A DNA stretch of 57,458 bases, from assembly GCF_000317225.1 (NCBI RefSeq), contig NZ_AJLL01000066.1, forward strand, positions 1-57,458, given 5' to 3'. The notes under the pieces were generated by a model, which made no database searches, had not been told where the DNA came from, and saw only the letters and a program-made list of their open reading frames with translations. The number at the start of each line of letters is the position of its first letter. The first letter of the stretch is position 1. Source of the stretch: Fischerella thermalis PCC 7521. GTDB taxonomy: Bacteria > Cyanobacteriota > Cyanobacteriia > Cyanobacteriales > Nostocaceae. Of the stretch, positions 5,777 through 34,246 are shown in pieces. A program made the translations under genes and the position numbers.

Positions 5777-7234
5777 ATGACTCTGGCTGAAACTCCCCAT
5801 AATACTAATTCTAAAAATCCTTTTCTCAGTCTTAAATACGAACCCGCCTTAGAATCCTTAGGCGATGATTATTACGACGAAGTTGCAGCTGCGGAATTTC
5901 CTCAACACATTCTAAGGTGGCGCAATGACGCATTGTTACCAAAGCTGGGGTTAAATCCACAAGCAGTCACAGACGAAGACTTCATCATTGCTTTTGGCAA
6001 ATTTGCAGGACGCAAGCCTTTATTAGCATTGCGATACCACGGTTACCAATTTGGTGAATACAATCCCCAATTAGGGGATGGTAGAGGTTTTCTCTACGGA
6101 CAAGTGCGTGGTATTGATGGTGAACTTTACGATTTCGGTACAAAAGGTTCTGGTAGAACACCCTATTCCCGTGGTGGTGATGGAATGCTGACATTAAAAG
6201 GGGGTGTTCGTGAAGTTTTGGCAGCGGAAATGTTACACAGAATGGGTGTACGTACTTCCCGCTGTCTCAGCATGATTGAAACAGGTTTATCCTTGTGGCG
6301 GGGTGATGAACCTTCTCCTACTCGTTCTTCCGTAATGGTACGGATGAGCAAATCACACATTCGCTTTGGTACTTTTGAACGGTTACACTATTTCCGCCGT
6401 CCAGATTTGAGCAAAAAGCTATTAGATCATGTAATTAAAGAATACTATCAACATTTAGACGAGAAACAAGATAAGTATGCTTTATTTTATGCAGAATTAG
6501 TTCAACGGACAGCAGAATTAGTAGCACAGTGGATGGCGGTTGGTTTCTGTCATGCAGTCCTAAATACTGACAACATGTCAATTACAGGGGAGAGTTTTGA
6601 TTACGGTCCCTATGCTTTTATTCCTAATTACGACCCTTTTTTCACTGCGGCATACTTTGACTATTACAAACGCTATTGTTACATTAATCAACCAGAGATT
6701 TGTAAATGGAACCTTGAAGCACTCCAGCAAGCATTAAAAGCTGTGATTCCTCAAACAGATATGGAAGCTGGGTTAGCACAATTTGATGATTATTATTTAG
6801 CTGAATATCGTTGTTTCATGTTGAAAAAATTAGGTTTTGAAAAACTGTCTGAGCCAGAAGCTGAAGAAATTTTAAAAGCAACTATTGAATTTTTAAAGCA
6901 TTATCCAGTTAGTTATCATCACTTTTTTGCAGATATGGCTTCTTGCTTTTCTAGCAAATGGAGAGATGATGCAAGTGTGATTCTCAGCAACTCAGAAATT
7001 GGACAATCCTTAGGCAGATCCGAATTATTTTTAAATTGGTCAGGGATATACCATAGAATTTTAACGAATTTGACGCCAGATGAAATAGAAAAAGTATCTC
7101 AGACTCTGGTTCGTTATAATCCTCAAGTTGTGATTTTAAGACCTGTGATTGAATCAATCTGGGAACCAATTACTCAAGCAGACAATTGGCAACCTTTTTA
7201 TGAATTACTGAATCAAATTCAATCTCAAACTTAA
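5777..7234 (+). CDS. selO: SelO / YdiU family protein adenylyltransferase
   Basis: SelO proteins are pseudokinases with inverted ATP binding that AMPylate Ser/Thr/Tyr of target proteins and respond to oxidative stress in the organisms studied. The 485-residue frame shows the conserved blocks [49 protein letters not shown], and the metal-binding catalytic part [18 protein letters not shown] followed by [14 protein letters not shown]. The C-terminal selenocysteine/cysteine tail of eukaryotic SelO is absent, as is usual for shorter bacterial forms. It stands alone between a repeat-rich spacer and the pseudogene cluster that follows. Confidence 0.93.
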
Positions 7235-7483
7235 TTTATAGATACTTTTAAATCAGGGTAGGTACATCTCAAACGCTATTAATCCATATTAAATACAAAA
7301 CTCTACTTAATCAAGGGGACTACGAACAGCCTTACCACCACGGTTAAGAACATGGGTATAAATCATTGTCATTTTTACATGCTTGTGCCCCAGTAATTCC
7401 TGTACCGTGCGGATATCATAACCATTTTGCAGTAGATGAGTAGCAAAACTGTGGCGAAACCTATGACAACCCACCTTTTTTTG

Positions 7484-7719
7484 GGCGTTGCTGAATTTGG
7501 TCATGAATTATGTGTGCATACATTTTTGTAGTTCGATGCCAAATCATTGTAGACGTAGCAAACTGTAGACGTAGCAAATTGTAGACGTAGCAAACTGTAG
7601 ACGTAGCAAACTGTAGACGTAGCAAACTGTAGACGTAGCAAACTGTAGACGTAGCAAACTGTAGACGTAGCAAACTGTAGACGTAGCAAACTGTAGACGT
7701 AGCAATGCTACGTCTCTAC
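7484..7719 (+). mobile_element. MITE-like element, family 1, copy C, expanded
   Basis: Begins with the family terminus GGCGTTGCTGAATTTGG, matches copies A and B for about 49 bp, then diverges into a tandem array and ends with ACGTAGCAATGCTACGTCTCTAC, the palindromic part of copy D. It sits inside the integrase pseudogene and fuses frames across it. Confidence 0.8.
7549..7704 (+). repeat. Tandem array, ten units of 16 bp
   Basis: The 12-mer GTAGACGTAGCA recurs ten times at exact 16-bp spacing (7549, 7565, 7581 and so on to 7693), separated by AACT or, once, AATT. The unit is nearly identical to the stem of the family-1 element (GTAGAGACGTAGCA), so the array looks like an expansion of the element's own arm. 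Confidence 0.95.
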
Positions 7720-7971
7720 TTTCATGTAAATGATGGCGACGCACTTCCTAGCTACGGGGGTCTTTGGAAATGCTACCAGAAGGGAAAACAAATTGCCAAA
7801 TCCAATCATACTTTGCTCTCGGATATTTTCTCTCTAATGCAAAAGGCAAATAAACCGAACCATAACCTTTTTGTAAATCTTGTTGATGTAAAATTTTTAC
7901 ACTTTGTAAATGAACTTTGAGTTCTTCGGTAATACTTTCAGGTAACATAGTCACCCGACTTTCAATTGAAG

Positions 7972-8336
7972 CCTTTAGTCTGGTTGACAGCGGCGCAACT
8001 GTCAACGTTATACCCCATGAAATGGGTCTACAGCTTGGGGCTACCTGGGACGACAGCAAAGCCATCATTCAACTGGCAGGAAATTTGGGCAACCAACCAG
8101 CCGCACCATCGTCTGCGATGGTTCAAGTTGGAGATATCGCTCCAGTTCAACTGGACTTTTCCTGGACTAAAAGCCCGAATGTGCCGCTGATTCTGGGACA
8201 AACCAACTTTTTTATGGAACTTGACGTATGTTTTTACCGTTCCAAAATGGAGTTTGAGGGTGAACCCAAGTCGCCTTCACCGTTAGACTGCATAGCAGAA
8301 AGCGAAAATCCTGTGTCAGTAGTTTTGAATCAGTAG
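7972..8336 (+). pseudogene. Retropepsin-like aspartyl protease fragment, N-truncated
   Basis: The frame reads [21 protein letters not shown], with the catalytic DSGA of retroviral-type aspartic proteases, and later PNVPLILGQTNFFMELDVCF, the usual second conserved block (hydrophobic-hydrophobic-G). About 118 residues remain. The expected N-terminal strands are missing: upstream of about 7972 the DNA is antisense integrase pseudogene. A frame open from ATG 7917 fuses the two and could be translated, but its first 18 residues are not native. It ends 20 bp inside the 3' end of the methylase on the other strand. Confidence 0.7.
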
Positions 8337-9125
8337 CTCTTGACCCTGAGCAGCACATCCCTGTTTGTAATTGTTCATGCCGTACTGAAGCGTCCATTCA
8401 GTAATATTTGCAAAGCTAAACAGTTCCCTAATTTCTTGGGAGTCATCATAAGTGATTAGCCATTTGTGCGGACACTTACGCATATTTTTAGCAAATCGCT
8501 CGTGATCAAAAGCAGTATGCAAATTTCCTTTCAAACCGTAGAGTTTTGATTTTGTAGCACTTAAATAAGGTGGATCAAGGAAAATAAAAACATTTTCTCC
8601 CTCTTGAAATAGCAGATTTTCGTAGTCACCATTAGTAATATGAACAGACGACAAATAAGCAGAGAGGTTGCGTAGTCGGTCGAGCGATGAGTCTGTAAAC
8701 CTCCGTTCAAAGGCTTGTTGAGAATAACCACCTGAATCTACAGTGCCCGAAAAAGTAATTCGGTTTAAAACAAAAAAACGTACCGCTCTCTGAAAATCGT
8801 TAAGTTTAAGATCTTCGCGAGTGAAATAATTAAACAATTCCCTACCATCTGTGTATTTTTGTTTGATTCTGTCTACTTCATCCGTAAGAGATTCAATTTC
8901 AGTCTTGGCATATAACCAAAAACAATATAGATCGAAATTTAAGTCATTGATCCAGTATCGCTTTATTCGATTACCAAATAGTTGTTTAACCGCAAGAAAA
9001 ACAGATCCACCACCTACAAAAGGCTCTCTATACTCCCCAATATTTAACGGAATATGAGGAAGTATCTTATCAAGAGCTTTTGATTTTCCACCTGGATAAC
9101 GAAGCGGACTTTTAACTTTAGGCAT
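8316..9125 (-). CDS. DNA adenine methyltransferase, D12 class
   Basis: Dam-family N6-adenine DNA methyltransferase using S-adenosylmethionine. The 269-residue product has the D12 signatures in order: LRYPGGKSK at residues 8-16, the SAM loop EPFVGGGSV at 34-42, ITFSGT at 123-128, the catalytic LDPPYLS around 183-189 and a target-recognition region with TFxDHERFA-like spacing. No restriction endonuclease is recognisable next to it, so it is either solitary or left over from a degraded restriction-modification unit; the flanks are pseudogenes. The recognition site cannot be read from the sequence; GATC is the commonest for the class. Confidence 0.92.
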   Translation of the reverse strand: MPKVKSPLRYPGGKSKALDKILPHIPLNIGEYREPFVGGGSVFLAVKQLFGNRIKRYWINDLNFDLYCFWLYAKTEIESLTDEVDRIKQKYTDGRELFNYFTREDLKLNDFQRAVRFFVLNRITFSGTVDSGGYSQQAFERRFTDSSLDRLRNLSAYLSSVHITNGDYENLLFQEGENVFIFLDPPYLSATKSKLYGLKGNLHTAFDHERFAKNMRKCPHKWLITYDDSQEIRELFSFANITEWTLQYGMNNYKQGCAAQGQELLIQNY

Positions 9126-9132
9126 GATTGTT

Positions 9133-9285
9133 TAGTGATTTGCTCTAATTTCAATTTTTATGTTTTCGTTCCGTTGAGATTCTAGTAACAGTTTTTTAAC
9201 AATGCTGCTTTCTCTTTCGCTAAAGATAACTTCTTTGATCCTAAGAAACTCGTTCAATTCTTCTTGCGCTGGAATTGTTTGGATT
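9133..9285 (-). pseudogene. Small frame upstream of methylase, 5'-truncated
   Basis: A minus-strand frame just before the methylase reads IPAQEELNEFLRIKEVIFSE, then ESSIVKKLLLESQRNENIKI, and stops at 9133, 8 bp before the methylase ATG. Composition looks like a real small charged helical protein, perhaps a regulator or the tail of one. It has an in-frame stop upstream and no ATG or GTG; a TTG is the only possible start. I do not recognise it. Confidence 0.35.
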
Positions 9286-9379
9286 GAAGTCTAAAAAAGA
9301 CACTTGCTCCAAAATTCCTGGAGATGCCTGTTTGACTTGTCCAAGCTGGAGGAACAACAATTATTTCTACTCCAAATTA

Positions 9380-9512
9380 GGTGTTGCTGAATTTGCTCAT
9401 GAATTATGTATACATTTTTGTAGAGACGTAGCAATGCTACGTCTCTACAAAGTCTGGTCTACGTCTGGTCATACCCGTGAATTGTAAATTCATATCTTGA
9501 TTCAGTAACGCC
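9380..9512 (+). mobile_element. MITE-like element, family 1, copy D (full length)
   Basis: The only complete copy: 133 bp with 26-bp imperfect terminal inverted repeats, GGTGTTGCTGAATTTGC at the left and the complement of GGCGTTACTGAATCAAG at the right. The centre holds the perfect palindrome GTAGAGACGTAGC / GCTACGTCTCTAC. No transposase is encoded. No clear target duplication can be seen at the flanks. Confidence 0.8.
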
Positions 9513-9853
9513 AATAATGTTGTCATCGCCAACTCTAAGTTTGAAACGCGCGAATGATGGAAAGATTTGCTTGAGCATTGCCCAGGTTGCATATAGGCTT
9601 GACAAATAACAGATTCCAGATATTTTGTAGATGTAAACAATATATCGAAAAATCAAAACAGAAGCAATTGAATATTAGATAGGAGGTAAATTAATTCATA
9701 AGGTTCTAAGCATCAATATTCAACAATAAAAAAGTATATCTTACATCAACATTTCATTTTTTCACATCAAACTGATAATTACTTGTTAGTAATCGGTATG
9801 TAATGATTAATTTGCATTATTTTTAAAGTAAATTTAAATAGCATTTTAACTTT
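9513..9853. other. Spacer before the peptide-export cassette
   Basis: On the minus strand, 9513-9656 has a short frame (FRYIVYIYKISGICYLSSLY, then ATWAMLKQIFPSFARFKLRV) that ends at the MITE and could be a remnant of an unknown gene. The rest, 9660-9853, is A/T-rich and should carry the promoter of the transporter gene starting at 9854. Confidence 0.35.
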
Positions 9854-12004
9854 ATGAAATATGCTCATGTCTTACAACATAGTAAAGAAGATTGTGGCGC
9901 AGCTTGTCTTGCTTCGATTACGAAATATTATGGACGTAACTTTACTCTAAACCAGATTCGTGAAGTCGTAGGTACTGGGCAATTTGGAACAACTTTGTTG
10001 GGACTGAAACGAGGAGCTGAAAGACTTGGTTTTAATGCTCGTCCTGTTAAAACATCACCAGAAGTTTTAAAGCGAATCAATGAAGCACCCCTACCAGCAA
10101 TTATTCATTGGAAAGGTCATCACTGGGTAGTTTTATATGGTAAGAAAGGCAAAAAATGTGTAGTTGCCGATCCTGCTGTAGGGCTGCGATATCTATCTCC
10201 ACAAGATTTAGCAGAAGGTTGGGCAGATTGGTTAATGCTTTTACTGGAGCCAGATCCAATTAGGTTTTATGCCCAAGAGAACCATCGCATCGGTAGCTTT
10301 TGGGGTTTCTTCAAGCGCATCTGGAATTTTCGGGGAATTCTAGCTCAAGCATTACCTCTTAACTGTCTGTTGGGATTGTTAGCTTTAGCTTCTCCTTTTC
10401 TGTTACAAATTCTCACTGATGATGTGCTAGTTAGGGGTGATACAAAACTCCTTACTACTATAGCGATCGCTGTGGTAGTCATGAATGTTATTTCTAGTAG
10501 TTTATCTTGGGTACAGTCTAACTTAATTGCTCACTTTGCCCAACGTCTGCAATTAGGGTTAGTTATAGAATTTGGGCGTCAAATTCTGCAATTACCACTC
10601 TCGTACTATGAAACTCATCGCAGTGGAGAAATTGTCAGTCGTCTACAAGATATTCACCAGATTAATCAGTTAGTTTCTCAAGTTGTCGTTATTCTACCTA
10701 ATAAGCTTTTTGTTGCCATAATTTCTTTAGGATTTATGGCTTTTTATAGTCATAAACTGACGATTTTAGCTCTTGTTATTTCTATATTAATGGTAATATC
10801 TACAGTAATATTTCAGCCCAGCTTGCAGCAAAAAACTCGTGAAGTTTTAGTTACAGAATCTGAAGTACAAGGTGTTTTAGTAGAAACATTTAAAGGTGCT
10901 ATTACTCTCAAAAATACTACAGCATTACCGCAATTTTTAGATGAATTACAAAGTCGATTTGGGCGAATTTCTACCCTAAAATTAAGCACAATACAAATTA
11001 GTATTAACAATAATATATTCTCCAATTTAGTTTCTGGAATTGGTAGTGTTGTTCTGCTTTGGTTTGGCGGAAATTTAGTGATTAATCCGGATGAGAACCT
11101 CAGTATTGGGCAACTACTTGCATTTAACTCTATGAATGGCAATTTCATAAATTTAATTGCTACTTTAATTACTTTCGTAGATGAATTCACTAGAGTAAAA
11201 ACAGCCACACAGCGCCTTACAGAAGTGATAGATACTACTCCAGAAAATCAAGGTGATGAAACAAAGCAGTTCGCTACAATTTCTGGAGATGCTGACATTA
11301 CTTGTAGTAATATCAGTTTTCACTACCCAGGTCAGCTTGAACTGCTTGAAGATTTTTCTTTAACAATACCTGGTGGAAAAAATATCGCCATTATTGGTAA
11401 ATCTGGTTGTGGTAAAAGCACTCTAGCTAAAATAATTGCTGGTCTATATTCAATCAAGTCTGGCAATATCCGCCTGGGAATTTACAATCTAGAAGACCTC
11501 TGTTTAGATTGTCTTCGTCAGCAGGTAATTTTAGTTCCCCAAGATGCTCACTTTTGGAATCGCTCTATTATTGAAAACTTTCGTTTAGGAGCGCCTTACC
11601 TGACATTTGAGCAAATTGTCAGAGCTTCTCAAGTTACAGAAGCAGATGATTTTATTAGTAAACTTCCTAACAAATATCAAACTATTTTGGGTGAGTTTGG
11701 AGCAAATCTTTCTGGTGGACAACGCCAACGCTTAGCAATAGCAAGAGCCATTGTTACAGATCCACCAGTGTTAATTTTGGATGAATCGACTAGCGGACTA
11801 GATCCAGTGAGTGAGGCGCGAGTTTTAGATCGTTTACTGAAGCATCGTCATGGTAAAACCACGATTTTGATTAGCCACCGTCCCCAGGTAATTAATCGTG
11901 CTGACTGGATTGTATTGCTAGATCAAGGCAAGTTAAAAATTCAAGGTTCTCTGGTGCAATTGCGTTACCAATCTGGGGAACATTTGAAATTTTTAAATCC
12001 TTAA
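9854..12004 (+). CDS. Peptidase-containing ABC transporter (PCAT), C39 type
   Basis: Exports small peptides after cleaving their leader behind a double glycine. The 716-residue product has three parts. Residues 1-130 form a C39 cysteine protease with Gln8, catalytic Cys14 in EDCGAACLAS, His90 in HHWVVLYG and Asp106 in VADPAVG. Residues 160-460 form the six-helix transmembrane domain. Residues 480-716 form the ATPase, with Walker A GKSGCGKST, signature LSGGQRQRLAIARA, Walker B VLILDEST and switch histidine in LISHR. All catalytic residues are present, so it should be active. The HlyD-type adaptor follows 24 bp downstream, and a double-glycine peptide gene closes the cassette. Confidence 0.95.
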   Translation: MKYAHVLQHSKEDCGAACLASITKYYGRNFTLNQIREVVGTGQFGTTLLGLKRGAERLGFNARPVKTSPEVLKRINEAPLPAIIHWKGHHWVVLYGKKGKKCVVADPAVGLRYLSPQDLAEGWADWLMLLLEPDPIRFYAQENHRIGSFWGFFKRIWNFRGILAQALPLNCLLGLLALASPFLLQILTDDVLVRGDTKLLTTIAIAVVVMNVISSSLSWVQSNLIAHFAQRLQLGLVIEFGRQILQLPLSYYETHRSGEIVSRLQDIHQINQLVSQVVVILPNKLFVAIISLGFMAFYSHKLTILALVISILMVISTVIFQPSLQQKTREVLVTESEVQGVLVETFKGAITLKNTTALPQFLDELQSRFGRISTLKLSTIQISINNNIFSNLVSGIGSVVLLWFGGNLVINPDENLSIGQLLAFNSMNGNFINLIATLITFVDEFTRVKTATQRLTEVIDTTPENQGDETKQFATISGDADITCSNISFHYPGQLELLEDFSLTIPGGKNIAIIGKSGCGKSTLAKIIAGLYSIKSGNIRLGIYNLEDLCLDCLRQQVILVPQDAHFWNRSIIENFRLGAPYLTFEQIVRASQVTEADDFISKLPNKYQTILGEFGANLSGGQRQRLAIARAIVTDPPVLILDESTSGLDPVSEARVLDRLLKHRHGKTTILISHRPQVINRADWIVLLDQGKLKIQGSLVQLRYQSGEHLKFLNP

Positions 12005-12028
12005 TTATTCACACTTATTCAGGGAATT

Positions 12029-13429
12029 ATGCTCTACACCCACAATCAAAAACTTCTGCCATCAATGCAAAGTGAAGATTTTCTTCCCCCTGTTAGTCGC
12101 TGGATATCCTTAGGAGGGATTTTTTTGATCGGGAGTATTGTCGCTAGTATTAGTCTCTGTTCATGGATTAAATACAATGTAACGATAAAAGCTAATGCCT
12201 TTGTGCGTCCTACAGGAGAAAATAGGCTAGTACAATCGAGAATTGAAGGGACTGTTAAAAGTATTTTGGTTAAAGAAAATCAATTTGTCAAACAGGGAGA
12301 GGCGATCGCTTATCTGGAAGATCAACAATTGCAAATCAAAAATAGCCAGTTACAAGGTAATATCCAACAGGATAAGTTACAAATCGCGCAAATTGATGCT
12401 CAGATTAAAGCTTTAGAGTCCCAGATGCTTGCTGAAGCCAGAGTTGCACAGGGAACAGTAGCTTCTGCTAAAGCAGAATTAGAGCGTAATCAATGGGAAT
12501 ATCAATATCGGCAAATTACCACCAACAGCGAATTACTTGCAGCTCAAGCAAATTTGCAAAAAGCCAAAGCAAACTTGCAAAAAGCTGAAGCTAATTTAAG
12601 TTTTGCAGAGATGGATCGCGATCGCTATCAGAAATTAGCAGAAATTGGTGCAATTGGAAACCGGGAACTTGAGCAGAAAAAGCTAGTTGTGAAGCAAACT
12701 AAAGCCATGCTTGCAGCTGAAAAAAAAGCTGTTGAGATCGCCCAAGCTCAAGTGCGATCAGCTAAAGCTGCTGTTAACCCTACCACTGCTATAGTAGCGA
12801 TCGCTCAAGAGCGCATTACCCAAGAAACTGCTAGAGGTAAAGCAACTATCGCTGCTTTAAAAAAAGAAAAACAAGCCTTAATTCAGCGTCGAGTTGCAAT
12901 ACAAAAGCAACTCGGACAATCTCAAAAAGAACTCCAGCAAGTTGCCAATCAACTACAAGATACAATTGTGCGTGCAACTAGTGATGGTATCATTCTCAAA
13001 CTCAATTTGCGAAACCCTGGTCAAGTGCTGCGAGTTAGCGAAGCGATCGCTGAAATCGCTCCGAGTAATACTCCTGTTGTTATTAAAGCAATCATTCCTA
13101 CCCAAGAGATCAAAAAAGTCGCTATTGGTCATAAAGTACAATTGCGAATAGATACCTGTCCTTATCCTGATTATGGGACTCTCAAAGGCGTTGTTGTAGG
13201 TGTTTCTCCAGACGCAATTACACCTGTAAACAACAATATAGATGCAGCAAAATCAGGAGCTGCTAGCTACTTTGAAGCGACGATTCAGCCTCAAAGTCTA
13301 ACATTTGGCAATGGTGAACGCCAGTGTCAGATTCAATCAGGAATGCAGGCAAAAGCTGACATTATTTCTAGAGAAGAGACTCTACTGCAATTTATGCTGA
13401 GAAAAGCTAGGTTAGTTACTGATTTATAA
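12029..13429 (+). CDS. HlyD-family periplasmic adaptor
   Basis: Membrane-fusion protein that links the inner-membrane peptide exporter to an outer-membrane channel. The 466-residue product has a short cytosolic tail, one membrane helix at about residues 27-48 (ISLGGIFLIGSIVASISL), a lipoyl-like half (GTVKSILVKENQFVKQGEAI), a long coiled coil rich in KANLQKAEA-type heptads at about 100-290, then the second lipoyl half (ATSDGIILKL) and a beta-barrel domain. It follows the transporter by 24 bp in one operon. The outer-membrane partner (TolC-like) is not in the window. Confidence 0.93.
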   Translation: MLYTHNQKLLPSMQSEDFLPPVSRWISLGGIFLIGSIVASISLCSWIKYNVTIKANAFVRPTGENRLVQSRIEGTVKSILVKENQFVKQGEAIAYLEDQQLQIKNSQLQGNIQQDKLQIAQIDAQIKALESQMLAEARVAQGTVASAKAELERNQWEYQYRQITTNSELLAAQANLQKAKANLQKAEANLSFAEMDRDRYQKLAEIGAIGNRELEQKKLVVKQTKAMLAAEKKAVEIAQAQVRSAKAAVNPTTAIVAIAQERITQETARGKATIAALKKEKQALIQRRVAIQKQLGQSQKELQQVANQLQDTIVRATSDGIILKLNLRNPGQVLRVSEAIAEIAPSNTPVVIKAIIPTQEIKKVAIGHKVQLRIDTCPYPDYGTLKGVVVGVSPDAITPVNNNIDAAKSGAASYFEATIQPQSLTFGNGERQCQIQSGMQAKADIISREETLLQFMLRKARLVTDL

Positions 13430-13844
13430 GTATTTTTTACCATCAAGTTCAGTACACAATACGTAGCTGTTCTGAGGGGTTGGGAGGGGACAGATCCCCG
13501 ACTTTTTCAAAAAGCCGGGGATCTAGCAGACCATCACAATCAATATTTTGGGTTACTACTAACATCAAGTCCGGCTAATTACTTACGATATTATTCTGAT
13601 GCAGCTGGGCATTGAGCATTGATTTTTTCCATTACCCATTACCAATTACCGGCCTTCACAGATATGATAAGTCTTTAAACGGACATGATATAACTATTAG
13701 TGTCAGGCTCTTCATTGATTTATATTATCGTTATTATTTTGCTGATTTGATAGTTTGTTATTGCATGAAAGTAGCATTTAAATTTACAAAAAAAATTTTT
13801 TATAGAATTATTGAGTCAGAAAACAATTTTTCTTGGAGGGAAAA
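13430..13844. other. Spacer between adaptor and precursor peptide
   Basis: Holds a dispersed 33-bp palindrome (13492-13524), a CCATTACC repeat at about 13625-13645, then A/T-rich DNA. The 415-bp gap suggests the peptide gene has its own promoter. No additional small frame with a double-glycine leader was found here. Confidence 0.5.
13492..13524. repeat. Dispersed 33-bp palindrome, copy 1
   Basis: AGATCCCCGACTTTTT, C, AAAAAGCCGGGGATCT: near-perfect hairpin. A second copy with matching flank (GAGGGGACAGATCCC) lies in opposite orientation at 51447-51478, and a half copy at 17141-17168. Confidence 0.85.
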
Positions 13845-14042
13845 ATGCAGAAAGTAAAGCAAAAATTAAATACTCAGACACCACAAAAACTTGAAAGCAT
13901 CCAACTTTTTGAAGAATTAACAGATAGCGAAACAGAGAAAGTATGTGGAGGTGTTACTGAATTATCACTTGACGAGTATAAAGTTGATTTCAAATTTGCA
14001 AAAATAGAGTTTACAGCAGATTTTATAACATTGAAAATCTGA
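13845..14042 (+). CDS. Double-glycine leader precursor peptide
   Basis: A 65-residue peptide with a clear secretion leader. Residues 1-36 end in IQLFEELTDSETEKVCGG, the amphipathic L-F-E-x-L-T...V-x-G-G pattern recognised by C39 peptidase transporters. The predicted 29-residue mature peptide starts VTELSLDEYKVDF. It alternates charged and aromatic or hydrophobic residues (beta-strand-like) and contains no Cys, so lanthionine or disulphide bridges are excluded. I start at the ATG at 13845, directly after TTGGAGGGAAAA; the TTG at 13833 lies inside that ribosome-binding site. It follows the transporter and adaptor genes and is closed by the terminator at 14128. No modification enzyme is nearby. 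Role, whether bacteriocin, signal or matrix peptide, is unknown. Confidence 0.8.
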   Translation: MQKVKQKLNTQTPQKLESIQLFEELTDSETEKVCGGVTELSLDEYKVDFKFAKIEFTADFITLKI

Positions 14043-14127
14043 AATAGTTACTGGATAAGTAAAACAAACATGCTTAAATTTTCCAAACATTTAAGCACAC
14101 AAAAATTTATTTTGTTGCTTGGTTTTC

Positions 14128-14160
14128 CGCCAGAGAAGTTTCTTCTACTGGCGTTTTTTT
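14128..14160 (+). terminator. Rho-independent terminator of the peptide cassette
   Basis: Stem CGCCAG...CTGGCG extended by GAAG / CTTC, followed by TTTTTTT at 14154-14160. It lies 85 bp after the precursor peptide and 58 bp before the end of the convergent debranching enzyme gene. Confidence 0.88.
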
Positions 14161-14217
14161 AATTTCAGCGATCGCACCAGAGCGTTTTTGCTGATCGCCA
14201 AACAACTAACAGTATGT

Positions 14218-16200
14218 TCACACTTCAGTTGCTAACCAAGCCCGTAGTACTTCCGCCACTGTCCAAGCCTGAGCAATGCAACCCCGCGCCGTCATCGGGG
14301 GATCACCATCAAAGATTTCGCTGAGACTACCAAGACCGTGGGCGTGCAGGTGATTGGCCATTGGTTCCAGAAATTGCCGTGCTTGGGCAGGGTCTTTGTA
14401 AACTCGCAGATGTGCCTGTACAAAGGGGCCAATTAACCATCCCCACACTGTCCCTTGATGATAAGCGCTATCTCGTTGCAGCTGATCACCTCCATAATGT
14501 CCCCTATATTGCGAATGATCACAGGATCGCGATCGCAATCCATGGGAAGTTAACAAATTCTGGGCGCAAGCATCTACTACACCTTTTTGTTGGGTTGAGT
14601 TCAGAGGACTTTCAGGTAAACAAACAGCAAAAATTTGGTTGGGGCGTAGGGACGGATCATCACCATCAGGCCCATCGAGGACATCGTAACAGTAACCTGT
14701 TTCTTGATTCCAGAAGCGTGAGAATCTGACCAAAGTTCGTTCAGCGATCGCCTCATATTCTCGGTGAGGTTTACCAATATGGCGAGCAAAGTTAGCCATT
14801 GTCCTCAAGGCATTATACCAGAGGGCATTGACTTCAATCGGTTTACCAATCCGGGGCGTGACTACCCAGTCCCCGATTTTAGCGTCCATCCAAGTCAGCT
14901 GCATTCCCGCTTCGCCAGCGTAAAGCAGCCCATCTGCTGCATCTAAATGGATATTGTAGCGAGTGCCGCGACAGTGCCAGTCGATGATATCTGCCAGGAT
15001 GGGAAATAGTTCTTCTAAAAGATCATCATCTTCTGTAACGTTGTAGTAAGCCTGTAAAGCATGAAAATACCAAAGAGTAGCATCAACGGTATTGTATTCC
15101 GGTATTTCGCCTGTATCAGGAAAACGATTTGGCAGCATTCCCTGATTTACATATTTAGCAAAAGTTCGGAGAATAGAACGGGCAATTTCGGGGCGACCTG
15201 TAGCCAGGGTCAGTCCTGGTAAGCTAATCATCGTATCCCGTCCCCAGTCACCAAACCAGTGATAGCCTGCGATGATCGTTTTGCCATGAATTTCATCTGA
15301 CCAGGAACGATCCACAATAAATTGGTCAGCAGCCAAAACCAGATGGTTCACCCAAGCTGGGGTTTCTTTGGCGTGGGAAGGGCGGTTAGTTTTCCAAAGA
15401 CTAATTAACTTTTGCTCTTGGGTATGGCGGAGTCTAAGGGTTGTTTCGCCATGTAGATCTGGTTGCTTGTCTGTGCTAGCAACAAAGGTTAGAGATTCAC
15501 CAGCATTGAGAGTAATTTGGAAAGTAGCAGCGTGTAAATGGTCTTCTTTGTCACTCAATCCTCGGTAGCGTTCTACTGCTAAGTGAAATCCATAATACCA
15601 ATTATGTGCAGGAACAGCGCTAGCATTGTCACACAGTAAATAAAGCGGTACAGCAGTGGGAAAGGCTGTCACACAAATTCCTTGGGGAACTGGTTCAACA
15701 CTCATTTGCCAGCCGTTGCTTTGGGTACTGCCATGATAATCGCGGTAGTTGACTAATGCTTTCAGCGTTAGTTGTAACGGCATAGAAGCACGGCGTAAGA
15801 CATATCGGACATAGGTAGTGTTTGCACCCTGCTGCATCCAAATTCGCTTTTCTAATAGCGCATCCGCACAGGCAAAATGCCACACAGGAATAGTGCCTTC
15901 CAAAGCAAAACGTTCTATGTGTAGGTAGCCGTTAGGACTGACGATTTCGTCAGCCCAACGATTTGTATGTAAAGGATAAATGCGATCGCCATACAAAGCA
16001 GTTTCATCCAGCTTTGCTAACATCAGGGTGCGACCTAAAGGTGGCTTTAGGGCTGCTACTAGTAATCCGTGGTAGCGACGGTTTAGCAAGCCTGCTACTG
16101 TGCCAGATGCGTATCCACCGATACCATTAGTTACTAACCACTCCCGTGATTCTGCTAAATCGAGAGTGCCACATACTTCCCTACCAAATTCAATGCACAT
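14218..16200 (-). CDS. Amylo-alpha-1,6-glucosidase (glycogen debranching enzyme)
   Basis: Hydrolyses alpha-1,6 branch points of glycogen-type polymers. The 660-residue product is the archaeal/bacterial two-domain type. The N-terminal beta-sandwich domain (REWLVTNGIGGYASGTVAGL, then NRRYHGLLVAALKPP) occupies about residues 1-250. The C-terminal (alpha/alpha)6 glucoamylase-like domain has DRSWSDEIHGKTIIAGYHWF, GDWGRDTMISLPGL (catalytic region), IPEYNTVDATLWYFHAL, SRSCDHSQYRGHY and YHQGTVWGWLIGPFVQAHL. It is distinct from the GH13 GlgX isoamylase type. It stands alone and converges on the peptide cassette. Confidence 0.93.
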   Translation of the reverse strand: MCIEFGREVCGTLDLAESREWLVTNGIGGYASGTVAGLLNRRYHGLLVAALKPPLGRTLMLAKLDETALYGDRIYPLHTNRWADEIVSPNGYLHIERFALEGTIPVWHFACADALLEKRIWMQQGANTTYVRYVLRRASMPLQLTLKALVNYRDYHGSTQSNGWQMSVEPVPQGICVTAFPTAVPLYLLCDNASAVPAHNWYYGFHLAVERYRGLSDKEDHLHAATFQITLNAGESLTFVASTDKQPDLHGETTLRLRHTQEQKLISLWKTNRPSHAKETPAWVNHLVLAADQFIVDRSWSDEIHGKTIIAGYHWFGDWGRDTMISLPGLTLATGRPEIARSILRTFAKYVNQGMLPNRFPDTGEIPEYNTVDATLWYFHALQAYYNVTEDDDLLEELFPILADIIDWHCRGTRYNIHLDAADGLLYAGEAGMQLTWMDAKIGDWVVTPRIGKPIEVNALWYNALRTMANFARHIGKPHREYEAIAERTLVRFSRFWNQETGYCYDVLDGPDGDDPSLRPNQIFAVCLPESPLNSTQQKGVVDACAQNLLTSHGLRSRSCDHSQYRGHYGGDQLQRDSAYHQGTVWGWLIGPFVQAHLRVYKDPAQARQFLEPMANHLHAHGLGSLSEIFDGDPPMTARGCIAQAWTVAEVLRAWLATEV

Positions 16201-16475
16201 ATCACCCTATACCTGTATGGAATCGCTATTTTGATTATCCGTCGTGATTTTTACCTCAGACTGAGAAGCTAATTAAGAGTTGCTAAGAAAAAACAGAGTA
16301 AAAAAGTGACAAATTGTGTAGAAAATTTAGCCAATACTATTAAGCGAATAGGAAAATAGGATTTTCCTGCGAATGACTCAATAGTACTCCATCAAATTTG
16401 TTACGCAGGATGCTTATTAGTTTGTAATAACCGCTTACTACAAACCCATCAATTCAAACTTAACGAAACAGCAGT

Positions 16476-16922
16476 TCACCTAGCTAAAGACGCATAGCCA
16501 AAAGTTGTATTGAACTGACGACACCAAATTGCCACAGATTGATAATCTCCAAGCTTTACATCATTAGGAATAGCGTAGCGTTGATTCCCACTCGTCTTTT
16601 GTAAACGAGAAATTTTGAGATAATCTTTTTCTTGAATACCAGATGTAGGAACTGTATCATCACGGTACAGAATTACGAACAAGTCAGGACCTTTGCTAGT
16701 TTTGAAATTTCCATTGAATTCTAAATAACGCTTGCCATTCTCTGTTAAAACTTTAACAGTTCCTTGAGTAGGATATTCTCCAGCAACAAAGCTTCCTGGT
16801 TGAGTGTTGGTTCTGGTTATCGGCTGGGCTTCATTAACTGGTTGGTCGGAGTTTACACCTGTTGTACAACCTACGGTCAATAAAGTAAAAATACTTATAA
16901 TTGCTAAAATTTTGAATTTCAT
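16476..16922 (-). CDS. DM13-domain lipoprotein
   Basis: A secreted lipoprotein with one DM13 domain, a cytochrome-DOMON-related fold of unknown activity. The start is set at the ATG at 16922 because it yields a lipoprotein signal (MKFKILAIISIFTLLTVGC) with lipid-accepting Cys19; an upstream ATG at 16994 adds 24 residues without sense. The mature domain shows GSFVAGEYPTQGTVKVL, YLEFNGNFKTSKGPDLFVIL and SVAIWCRQFNTTFGYASL, including the conserved Cys of the WCRxFN motif. Final length is 148 residues. It probably lies in the periplasm. Confidence 0.85.
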   Translation of the reverse strand: MKFKILAIISIFTLLTVGCTTGVNSDQPVNEAQPITRTNTQPGSFVAGEYPTQGTVKVLTENGKRYLEFNGNFKTSKGPDLFVILYRDDTVPTSGIQEKDYLKISRLQKTSGNQRYAIPNDVKLGDYQSVAIWCRQFNTTFGYASLAR

Positions 16923-17140
16923 GGCTATGGTATTCCCTAAATTTATTAATAATTCCAATCCAGTAGCCGACATTACGGAAAACTTTAATTTCATCTAAGA
17001 TTTTTTATTATTTCTAATGATTTGAGCAGCAATGATAAATTATTACAGCAAAATGAATTGAAAAACCTCACAGAAACAGTCTTTCTCCGCACTCAAGAAG
17101 AGTGCAAGATCTCAGTTATTTTAATACGGGATAAAAGAAA

Positions 17141-33727: not shown

Positions 33728-33747
33728 GTTCCCATTGTTTCCATTCA

Positions 33748-34003
33748 GTTTCCATTCAATTAGTTTCCCCAGCGAGTGGGGAGACAGGCGGAGCCAATCA
33801 AAAGCATGGCCCACGCAGAGTTTCCATTCAATTAGTTTCCCCAGCGAGTGGGGAGGTGGTTTCGTTTGGTGTGTTGCCGTCGTTGATGGTTTGTTTCCAT
33901 TCAATTAGTTTCCCCAGCGAGTGGGGAGAATATATATATATAGAGCTACCGCTGGACACAACATATTGTTTCCATTCAATTAGTTTCCCCAGCGAGTGGG
34001 GAT
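33748..34003. CRISPR. CRISPR mini-array, 4 repeats and 3 spacers
   Basis: Four 36-bp repeats at 33748, 33820, 33893 and 33968, starting GTTTCCATTCAATTAG and ending CCCCAGCGAGTGGGGAG, with an internal CCCCA / TGGGG hairpin. The first three are identical; the last ends in T. Spacers are 36, 37 and 39 bp and unrelated to one another; the third starts with a TA run. An 11-bp partial repeat (GTTTCCATTCA) precedes the first one directly at 33737-33747. No cas gene is in the window. The type cannot be assigned from the repeat by eye. Confidence 0.97.
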
Positions 34004-34235: not shown

Positions 34236-34246
34236 AAGGAACTGAT

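Follow-up and report, generated by a model that had tools for sequence, protein, structure and literature searches.

The subject of this report is a small cassette for the export of a double-glycine peptide in Fischerella thermalis PCC 7521. It is located on contig NZ_AJLL01000066.1 (contig C65 of the 5.44-Mb genome). The whole stretch of DNA that was analysed, 57,458 nucleotides in length, is referred to as the window. In the 5' to 3' direction of the forward strand, the cassette codes for a transporter (T), an adaptor (H) and a 65-residue precursor (P). The original prediction had described the region from 9854 to 14160 as an intact C39 transporter, an HlyD adaptor, a precursor and a strong terminator. 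Both its coordinates and its content were recovered, including a well-folding terminator (-15 kcal/mol, z -5.2). The core of P represents a small lineage-specific family which was not found in print among the matches listed, and a literature search for the peptide itself gave nothing among the matches listed. The machinery is ordinary. The features are:

9599 to 9626, forward strand: predicted promoter of T and H (TTGACA-16-TATTTT), joint best consensus match of the region (10/12), putative function
9854 to 12004, forward strand: T, short-type C39 peptidase-containing ATP-binding cassette (ABC) transporter (PCAT) of 716 residues, catalytic residues present (domain scan, alignment, motif reading)
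12029 to 13429, forward strand: H, HlyD-family adaptor of 466 residues (domain scan, orthologue identity)
13478 to 13530, forward strand: hairpin repeat between H and P (fold z -1.75), window only
13760 to 13831, forward strand: predicted promoter and 5' region of P, with a TTGCAT-N5-TAGCAT direct repeat (element 13761 to 13785), predicted -35 and -10 boxes and untranslated region
13835 to 13840, forward strand: ribosome-binding site GGAGGG of P (sequence)
13845 to 14042, forward strand: P, 65-residue double-glycine precursor, ATG at 13845 (homologues, coding constraint)
13845 to 13952, forward strand: leader of P, 36 residues, with L-12, E-8, V-4, G-2 and G-1, and Thr at -7 (sequence)
13953 to 14039, forward strand: predicted mature peptide VTELSLDEYKVDFKFAKIEFTADFITLKI, 29 residues, no Cys, net charge -2 (cleavage site predicted from the GG motif)
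14071 to 14097, forward strand: 3' hairpin TGCTTAAAT...ATTTAAGCA after the stop codon of P (fold of 14060 to 14100, z -5.95)
14128 to 14160, forward strand: intrinsic terminator of P, GCCAG...CTGGC followed by a T run (fold -15 kcal/mol, z -5.16)

P has the marks of a coding gene. When leader and mature sequence were searched in relatives, matches at E<=0.01 were obtained in 10 of 217 genomes of the family, and seven of these cover both leader and core. The seven genomes are all those examined from two Fischerella genera, three of three from the own genus (g1) and four of four from genus g42. Named records among them are Fischerella muscicola PCC 7414, F. muscicola SAG 1427-1 and Fischerella sp. 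PCC 9431. Reading frame and length are kept in 7/7 homologues, with one in-frame codon difference. For the whole of P, the three own-genus pairs have ratios of nonsynonymous to synonymous substitution rates (dN/dS) of 0.20-0.25, compared to 0.34-0.75 for the remaining 18 pairs. Fisher tests for the own-genus pairs gave p values of 0.004, 0.003 and 0.0005, computed from rounded counts for pairs that are not independent. Homologues, kept frame and length, and dN/dS rule out a chance open reading frame (ORF), so that the small frame of the original prediction is real. Between the genera, leader dN exceeds core dN in 12/12 pairs, and leader dN/dS exceeds core dN/dS in 9/12.

The leader ends in VCGG, and its GG motif places the predicted cut after Gly36. 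In the homologue of F. muscicola PCC 7414, the predicted core starts with VTELELNDYK. According to PMC6363468, the leader positions that are read by C39 domains include L-12, E-8 and a hydrophobic residue at -4. L-12, E-8, V-4 and the GG pair are kept in all seven homologues. At position -7, where a hydrophobic residue is typical of such leaders, four of them have Ile and three have Thr (P of the window and two relatives).

Beyond the two genera, three genomes (G033, G035 and G137) have seven matches to P which are best in the leader. Four of these extend past the GG pair to residues 56-59 (31-43% identity), and the readable frames at these matches carry cores other than that of P. A broad family sharing the core was sought by profile searches in 388 genomes of the order and 386 of the phylum, samples that were drawn evenly and overlap in genomes. 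It was rejected: the genome of the window was the sole full-length match, the other six genomes with P were not listed in either sample, and all other matches were leader-type or spurious. Plasmid-borne spread was likewise rejected, with no plasmid match at E 0.1.

P adjoins T and H, downstream of H, in all five orthologous cassettes (g1 and g42). A homologous precursor downstream of orthologous transporters, and a conserved cassette order in relatives, had been named as checks in the original prediction, and both were found. Upstream of T in the cassettes of g1 and g42, a motif scan gave no credible precursor. Two genomes of g42 have P without T and H beside it. In G174 (8 contigs), P is located about 3.6 kb downstream of the SelO gene, and no T or H is found in the 19.5-kb stretch. 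The other case is G172, which is less certain, being a draft of 520 contigs. These two orphan cores show the smallest difference among the g42 pairs (core dN 0.07, dN/dS 0.16). SelO is also encoded near the cassette in the window and was considered as a modifier of P, but was discarded because no tblastn match exists in the 19-kb loci of two relatives, G069 and G070 (L018, L019).

The core has the pattern of a strand with evenly spread charge, which would make it akin to designed ionic self-complementary peptides. Moments were computed with an Eisenberg-type scale. The best 18-residue beta moment exceeds that of shuffled sequences in 7/7 cores (p 0.015-0.035). The corresponding alpha moment has p values of 0.54-0.91 and does not reach p<0.05 in any of the seven. 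As controls, 62 double-glycine cores were gathered by motif from loci L078-L097, L024, L025, L026 and L028, which may include false ORFs. With 18-residue windows, p<0.05 was reached by 1/62 of them for beta and 3/62 for alpha, and the sole control with a beta signal looks like a false ORF. Charged residues account for 10/29 (0.34) of the window core, compared to 0.28 in the top control core. Net charge ranges from -2 to 0 across the homologues. Designed ionic beta peptides (EAK16, FKFEFKFE; PMC2387071, PMC6928719) show an alternation of charged and hydrophobic residues, as is seen in the core of P. Peptides of the EAK16 type are designed and regular, whereas the core of P is natural and alternates only partly. 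Its assembly is a proposal. P was also considered as a lanthipeptide. This was rejected, since the core has no Cys and neither LanM nor another cyclase is found among the eight neighbouring proteins scanned. No peptide-modification enzyme of any kind is encoded by these eight neighbours, in agreement with the Cys-free, non-lanthipeptide product of the original prediction.

The transporter looks fully active, as had been claimed. Over the Pfam cut-offs, it has the domains Peptidase_C39, ABC_membrane and ABC_tran only, and no N-terminal CAP_ED domain. The sequence contains Cys14, His90, Asp106, Walker A, LSGGQ, LILDE and the H-loop, with His90 and Asp106 being placed via an alignment to the solved PCAT 4ry2. 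Activity is thus predicted from the presence of catalytic and ATPase residues. T aligns over nearly its whole length with PCAT1 (4ry2, E 1.4e-113) and with ComA (8hf4, E 3.8e-98), which have the same order of C39, transmembrane and nucleotide-binding domains. PCAT1 and ComA are transporters from Gram-positive bacteria and are not known to work with an HlyD adaptor. Orthologues of T in G069, G070, G171 and G173 are 84-92% identical. H is over the cut-off for HlyD_3 (60.9 bits vs 22.2) and for Biotin_lipoyl_2. Its identity is 89% in G069, 88% in G070 and about 82% in loci L020 and L022.

Judged by domain content, the cassette belongs to group III of the cyanobacterial C39/HlyD clusters. Seven groups of cyanobacterial C39-type clusters were described by Wang et al. 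2011 (PMC3140520). The assignment is based on a short C39 transporter and HlyD without LanM, a second ABC transporter, SurA or an S8 peptidase, none of which was found in the ORF list from 5 to 20 kb or among the eight neighbours. As presented in that paper, group III combines a short C39-ABC transporter, HlyD and double-glycine precursors, just as in the window. These clusters average 3.89 precursors (PMC3140520 Table 2), whereas the window cassette has a single one. P is further set apart from group III by its position downstream of HlyD, its own predicted promoter and its 29-residue core. A survey of Subsection V cyanobacteria (PMC4558948) ranks group III second in abundance across 13 genomes, F. 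muscicola PCC 7414 and F. thermalis PCC 7521 being among them. Four known precursor types were sought in that survey, and many unassigned short peptides in the clusters are remarked upon. In total, 290 double-glycine precursors from 58 cyanobacterial genomes are given in PMC3140520.

The transporter class is common, and the cassette is less special than the original prediction suggested. T-like transporters at E<=1e-200 occur in 203/217 family genomes. The own genome has eight C39 matches, three of them in frames of 720-741 residues (window, contigs C105 and C74). Eighteen transporters from other genera, hand-picked from the family list and 76-81% identical to T, all have at least one double-glycine precursor upstream on the same strand. 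These precursors were detected by motif in 15 cases and by reading in L080, L081 and L096, and none of those listed has a P-like core. In the second short C39 cassette of the own genome (contig C105, L078:10627-12000), the transporter is preceded by four double-glycine precursors. Certain double-glycine cores are found in more than one genus of the Nostocaceae (L080-L097), e.g. ...ILGAGVVFGNPGLTPDEIQFAWESAFVF and ...QQTGYxLSQLTFGF..., and this tempers the statement of very little core conservation in PMC3140520.

P looks like a separate transcription unit, with a promoter and a terminator of its own, which would allow the amount of the peptide to be set apart from that of the pump. The predicted T-H promoter is part of a block of about 55 bp that is conserved upstream of T in 5/5 orthologous loci. 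No match to this promoter at up to 6 mismatches was found in the paralogue loci L078 and L079. For P, transcription would start behind an element TTGCA[TC]-N5-T[AG]G[CT]AT, which is present in all seven loci, including the orphans, and the conserved block begins 82-87 nt before the start codon. Downstream of P, the 3' hairpin pattern is found in 6/7 loci, being missing from G174. The terminator stem shows a paired change, with CGCCAG/CTGGCG in g1 and CACCAG/CTGGTG in G172 and G173. The hairpin at 13478-13530 was considered as an operon terminator and dismissed for its weak fold and the lack of a counterpart in aligned relatives.

By sequence comparison, the predicted promoter type is common to other double-glycine peptides and to units devoid of an ORF, and this appears to be the most novel part of the analysis. 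The element precedes four other precursors, being located 87 nt ahead of three precursors of locus L024 (G033, 1 mismatch) and of one precursor of L026 (G035, 3 mismatches). Their leaders are related to that of P, and their cores are different. In G033 (L024:9268-10877), the three are orphan double-glycine precursors arranged in tandem and nearly identical to one another, whose leader and promoter are P-like and whose core is another one. No T or H homologue is found in the 19.5-kb stretch around them. With up to 3 mismatches allowed, ten genomes of the genera g1, g11 and g42 contain 56 sites vs none for the reversed pattern. Family-wide, sites occur in 86/217 genomes. Outside g1, g11 and g42, they are scattered and close to chance, and many of the family-wide sites are probably chance, because the reversed pattern gives 0-3 per genome. 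The TTGCAT element as the mark of a precursor-only regulon was rejected, as 47 sites in 40 further loci, taken from the places listed, have no precursor-like ORF (first six ORFs per site, read by eye).

These sites revealed a dispersed ORF-less family in g1, g42 and g11, which combines the TTGCAT direct-repeat promoter with a terminator of the GCCAGTGG...CCACTGGC type and is a candidate small-RNA family. A CCAG...CTGG terminator is found within about 230 nt at 25/44 sites vs 99/2000 random 200-nt stretches from the same loci. The 44 non-P sites come from 37 loci (L167-L169 were left out). Visual inspection removed 11 that did not look like units, and 2 others lacked a terminator by the rule applied. 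Of the remaining 31 units, 3 were dropped for odd length, and the resulting 28 ORF-less units (106-154 nt) align. Loci assigned to the family are:

L166 (G000:C47:24253-24405) and L175 (G000:C50:2683-2805), both in the own genome; L163, L165, L153, L158, L160, L161 and L132-L151; G034 (10 matches)

A model built from these units (R1) retrieves C50:2683-2805, which is outside its training set (E 2.4e-20), and C47:24253-24405, which is inside (E 1.2e-16). With strict filters, it matches in 6/60 sampled genomes, namely three of g1, G174, G034 (10 matches) and G082 (one weak match). R1 also matches the promoter of P in the window (E 8e-4 in the whole genome, 3.1e-5 in the set of loci), and the whole-genome search also retrieves the P promoters of G069, G070 and G174. 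Among the loci examined, seven P promoters, three of L024 and one of L026 match at E<=9e-4. The match to P is partly circular, because the units behind R1 were gathered with the pattern of the P promoter. To counter this, only the 30 nt behind the pattern were scored, which had not been used in finding the units. This stretch beats its shuffles in 11/11 P-type promoters, with 0-18 of 5000 shuffles being as good and G171 being the weakest. P of the window scores 11.4, with 1 of 5000 shuffles as good, while scores >=10 are reached at 7e-5 of background positions. Rfam gave no match at gathering score in window 7000-17000. In 12 and 6 loci (partly overlapping), it gave 2 and 3 weak matches, all below gathering. 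No literature on such small RNAs was recognised among the matches listed.

It is tempting to speculate that P belongs, as its peptide-coding member, to a regulon restricted to this lineage. Its promoter (TTGCAT-N5-T[TA]GYAT, the repeats one helical turn apart and ahead of the -10 box) would drive orphan double-glycine peptides with interchangeable cores as well as dispersed ORF-less transcripts (about 105-155 nt, with a terminator of the same type). These transcripts would either regulate the peptide genes, being co-expressed with them, or be fossils of such genes, and the peptide of Fischerella would assemble naturally into ionic beta-sheets. Taken as a whole, this proposal is unlikely.

For P itself, the following sequence of events is proposed. 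P would be transcribed from its own promoter and translated. The leader would be bound by the C39 domain of T (or, in trans, by that of a paralogue) and be cut after Gly36. The 29-residue core would then be driven through H and a TolC-type outer-membrane channel that is encoded elsewhere. A protein with two OEP domains, encoded on contig C45 of the own genome, is a candidate for this channel. We assign a probability of about 0.85 to this export mechanism. No outer-membrane factor belongs to the T-H-P cassette. This, together with the predicted promoter of P and with P having no adjoining T and H in G174 and in the draft G172, does not support the 'self-contained' cassette as stated in the original prediction. 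The earlier interpretation is partly supported.

Once exported, the core would be an amphipathic beta peptide of high charge, found in the Fischerella genera. We favor a structural role, in which the peptide would be a self-associating component of the matrix, the sheath or the cell surface, comparable in role (not in sequence) to EbfG of Synechococcus elongatus. The probability of export combined with such a role is put at about 0.45. A structural role is favored over that of a bacteriocin because P is present in every g1 and g42 genome examined, because no immunity or receptor gene is found among the scanned neighbours, and because the core is near-neutral and beta-amphipathic. Presence in all seven genomes of two genera is as would be expected for a core gene. 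In S. elongatus PCC 7942, small proteins with a GG motif (EbfG1-4) are exported with the C39 protein PteB and enable biofilm formation (PMC4997328). When tested in an E. coli system, EbfG1-3 formed amyloid (PMC9981879). The window cassette is similar in having a small GG-motif protein and a C39 transporter, with extracellular assembly as the proposed role. The systems differ in several respects. Mature EbfG proteins have 6-7 kDa, and all four share one transcript. The organisation of PteB is reported to be like that of HetC. The processing-peptidase homologue EbfE has no counterpart that was seen at the window cassette. The LAFNIG hot spot of EbfG2 (PMC9981879) is unlike the charge-spread core of P.

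Several observations weigh against this reading. The alternating beta-strand-like core of the original prediction stands for 18-residue windows and fails for 11-residue windows, of which only those of 1/7 cores reach p<0.05. On an AGGRESCAN-type aggregation scale, the core has no hot spot, and its best window is below 95-98% of shuffles. This scale penalises charge and would also miss ionic beta-sheet assemblers; the core may be amyloid-like, as the original prediction had suggested. The three EbfG peptides that are printed in PMC4997328 do not resemble the core of P. In own-genus pairs, constraint is weaker on the core than on the leader (dN/dS 0.39-0.61 vs 0.11-0.12). Across every pair with a defined value, the dN/dS of the core spans 0.16-0.93 (29 codons, few sites). 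One pair has a leader dN/dS of 1.17, and another accounts for the core value of 0.93. The seven homologues come from two genera and are not independent. The terminator pattern is found in 5/7 P loci, being missing from G171 and G174 as well as from the three L024 loci, and the terminator part of R1 is weak at P (21.6 bits, E 0.096). Finally, T need not be the exporter of P, since P has no adjoining T and H in G174 and G172.

Alternatively, the exported 29-mer may be a signal, which the original prediction had also suggested. It would inform adjacent cells of the filament about cell density or about their state of differentiation (hormogonia, branching, heterocysts). There are precedents in C39 exporters that release pheromones in Gram-positive bacteria and in HetC of Nostoc PCC 7120, which is needed for heterocyst formation (PMC10986499). 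Like T, HetC is a C39 exporter of a filamentous cyanobacterium. It has an N-terminal cyclic-nucleotide-binding domain and, according to PMC10986499, no known precursor, whereas T has no such domain over the Pfam cut-off. A single precursor with a separate predicted promoter, found in all seven genomes of two genera, would suit a signal as well. Neither a kinase nor a receptor is among the eight neighbours scanned. We consider signalling unlikely.

P may also be a microcin-like bacteriocin directed against related cyanobacteria, as is implied by the name under which genome surveys list this cluster type (PMC3140520, PMC4558948). The faster change of the own-genus core, compared to the leader, would fit, as would the resemblance to the CTB family bacteriocin model NF038167 of NCBIfam (14 bits, cut-off 32) and to ComC PF03047 of Pfam (13.7 bits, gathering cut-off 20.4), both of which are sub-threshold. 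Bacteriocin function is nevertheless doubtful in our view. The window ORF list and the eight scanned neighbours contain no immunity-type gene adjoining P, the core is anionic to neutral, and the occurrence of P is not patchy, the gene even being kept in the two genomes that have no adjoining T and H.

Export of P in trans is possible because each of the seven P genomes has at least one transporter of the T subfamily at E<=1e-200. P might then be exported mainly by the paralogous short C39 transporter (contig C105, 75% identical), with T serving other or several cargoes. In G174, the sole transporter at E<=1e-200 is the 75% paralogue, and the closest among the matches listed for the draft G172 is also at 75%. 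The two orphan cores stay constrained, as seen from their core dN/dS, and a C39 domain can be very cargo-tolerant (PMC6363468). G173, which has P and T, has no second transporter at E<=1e-200. P is adjacent to T and H in 5/7 genomes, and the C105 transporter has four upstream precursors of its own, so that we judge this route to be a poor candidate for the main one. That P works mainly at the RNA level, as one of the dispersed small transcripts whose reading frame is secondary or decaying, is suggested by a promoter region and, in part, a 3' hairpin and terminator that resemble the ORF-less units, but is highly improbable given the kept frame and length, the own-genus dN/dS and a clear ribosome-binding site and leader.

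Directly upstream of the cassette, on the opposite strand (window 8316-9125), a lone D12-class adenine DNA methyltransferase is encoded, for which the loci of G069 and G070 gave no tblastn match. Next to a 65-residue phage-integrase fragment (7307-7504) lies a tandem repeat with a 16-bp unit (window 7548-7705, 9.9 copies at 98%). At window 33746-34002, four copies (95-100%) of the 37-nt direct repeat TTGTTTCCATTCAATTAGTTTCCCCAGCGAGTGGGGA, spaced by 72-75 nt, resemble a small array of clustered regularly interspaced short palindromic repeats. They adjoin the gene for a leucine transfer RNA at 34246.

Double-glycine peptides are widespread orphan products of cyanobacteria, and EbfG is the only set with a tested function that was found in the literature search. 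The shared promoter type may help to establish the conditions under which these peptides are produced, and it points to a family of small transcripts without a match in Rfam. The P peptide is small, looks unmodified, can readily be synthesised and is present in all seven genomes examined from the two genera, so that its function is directly testable.

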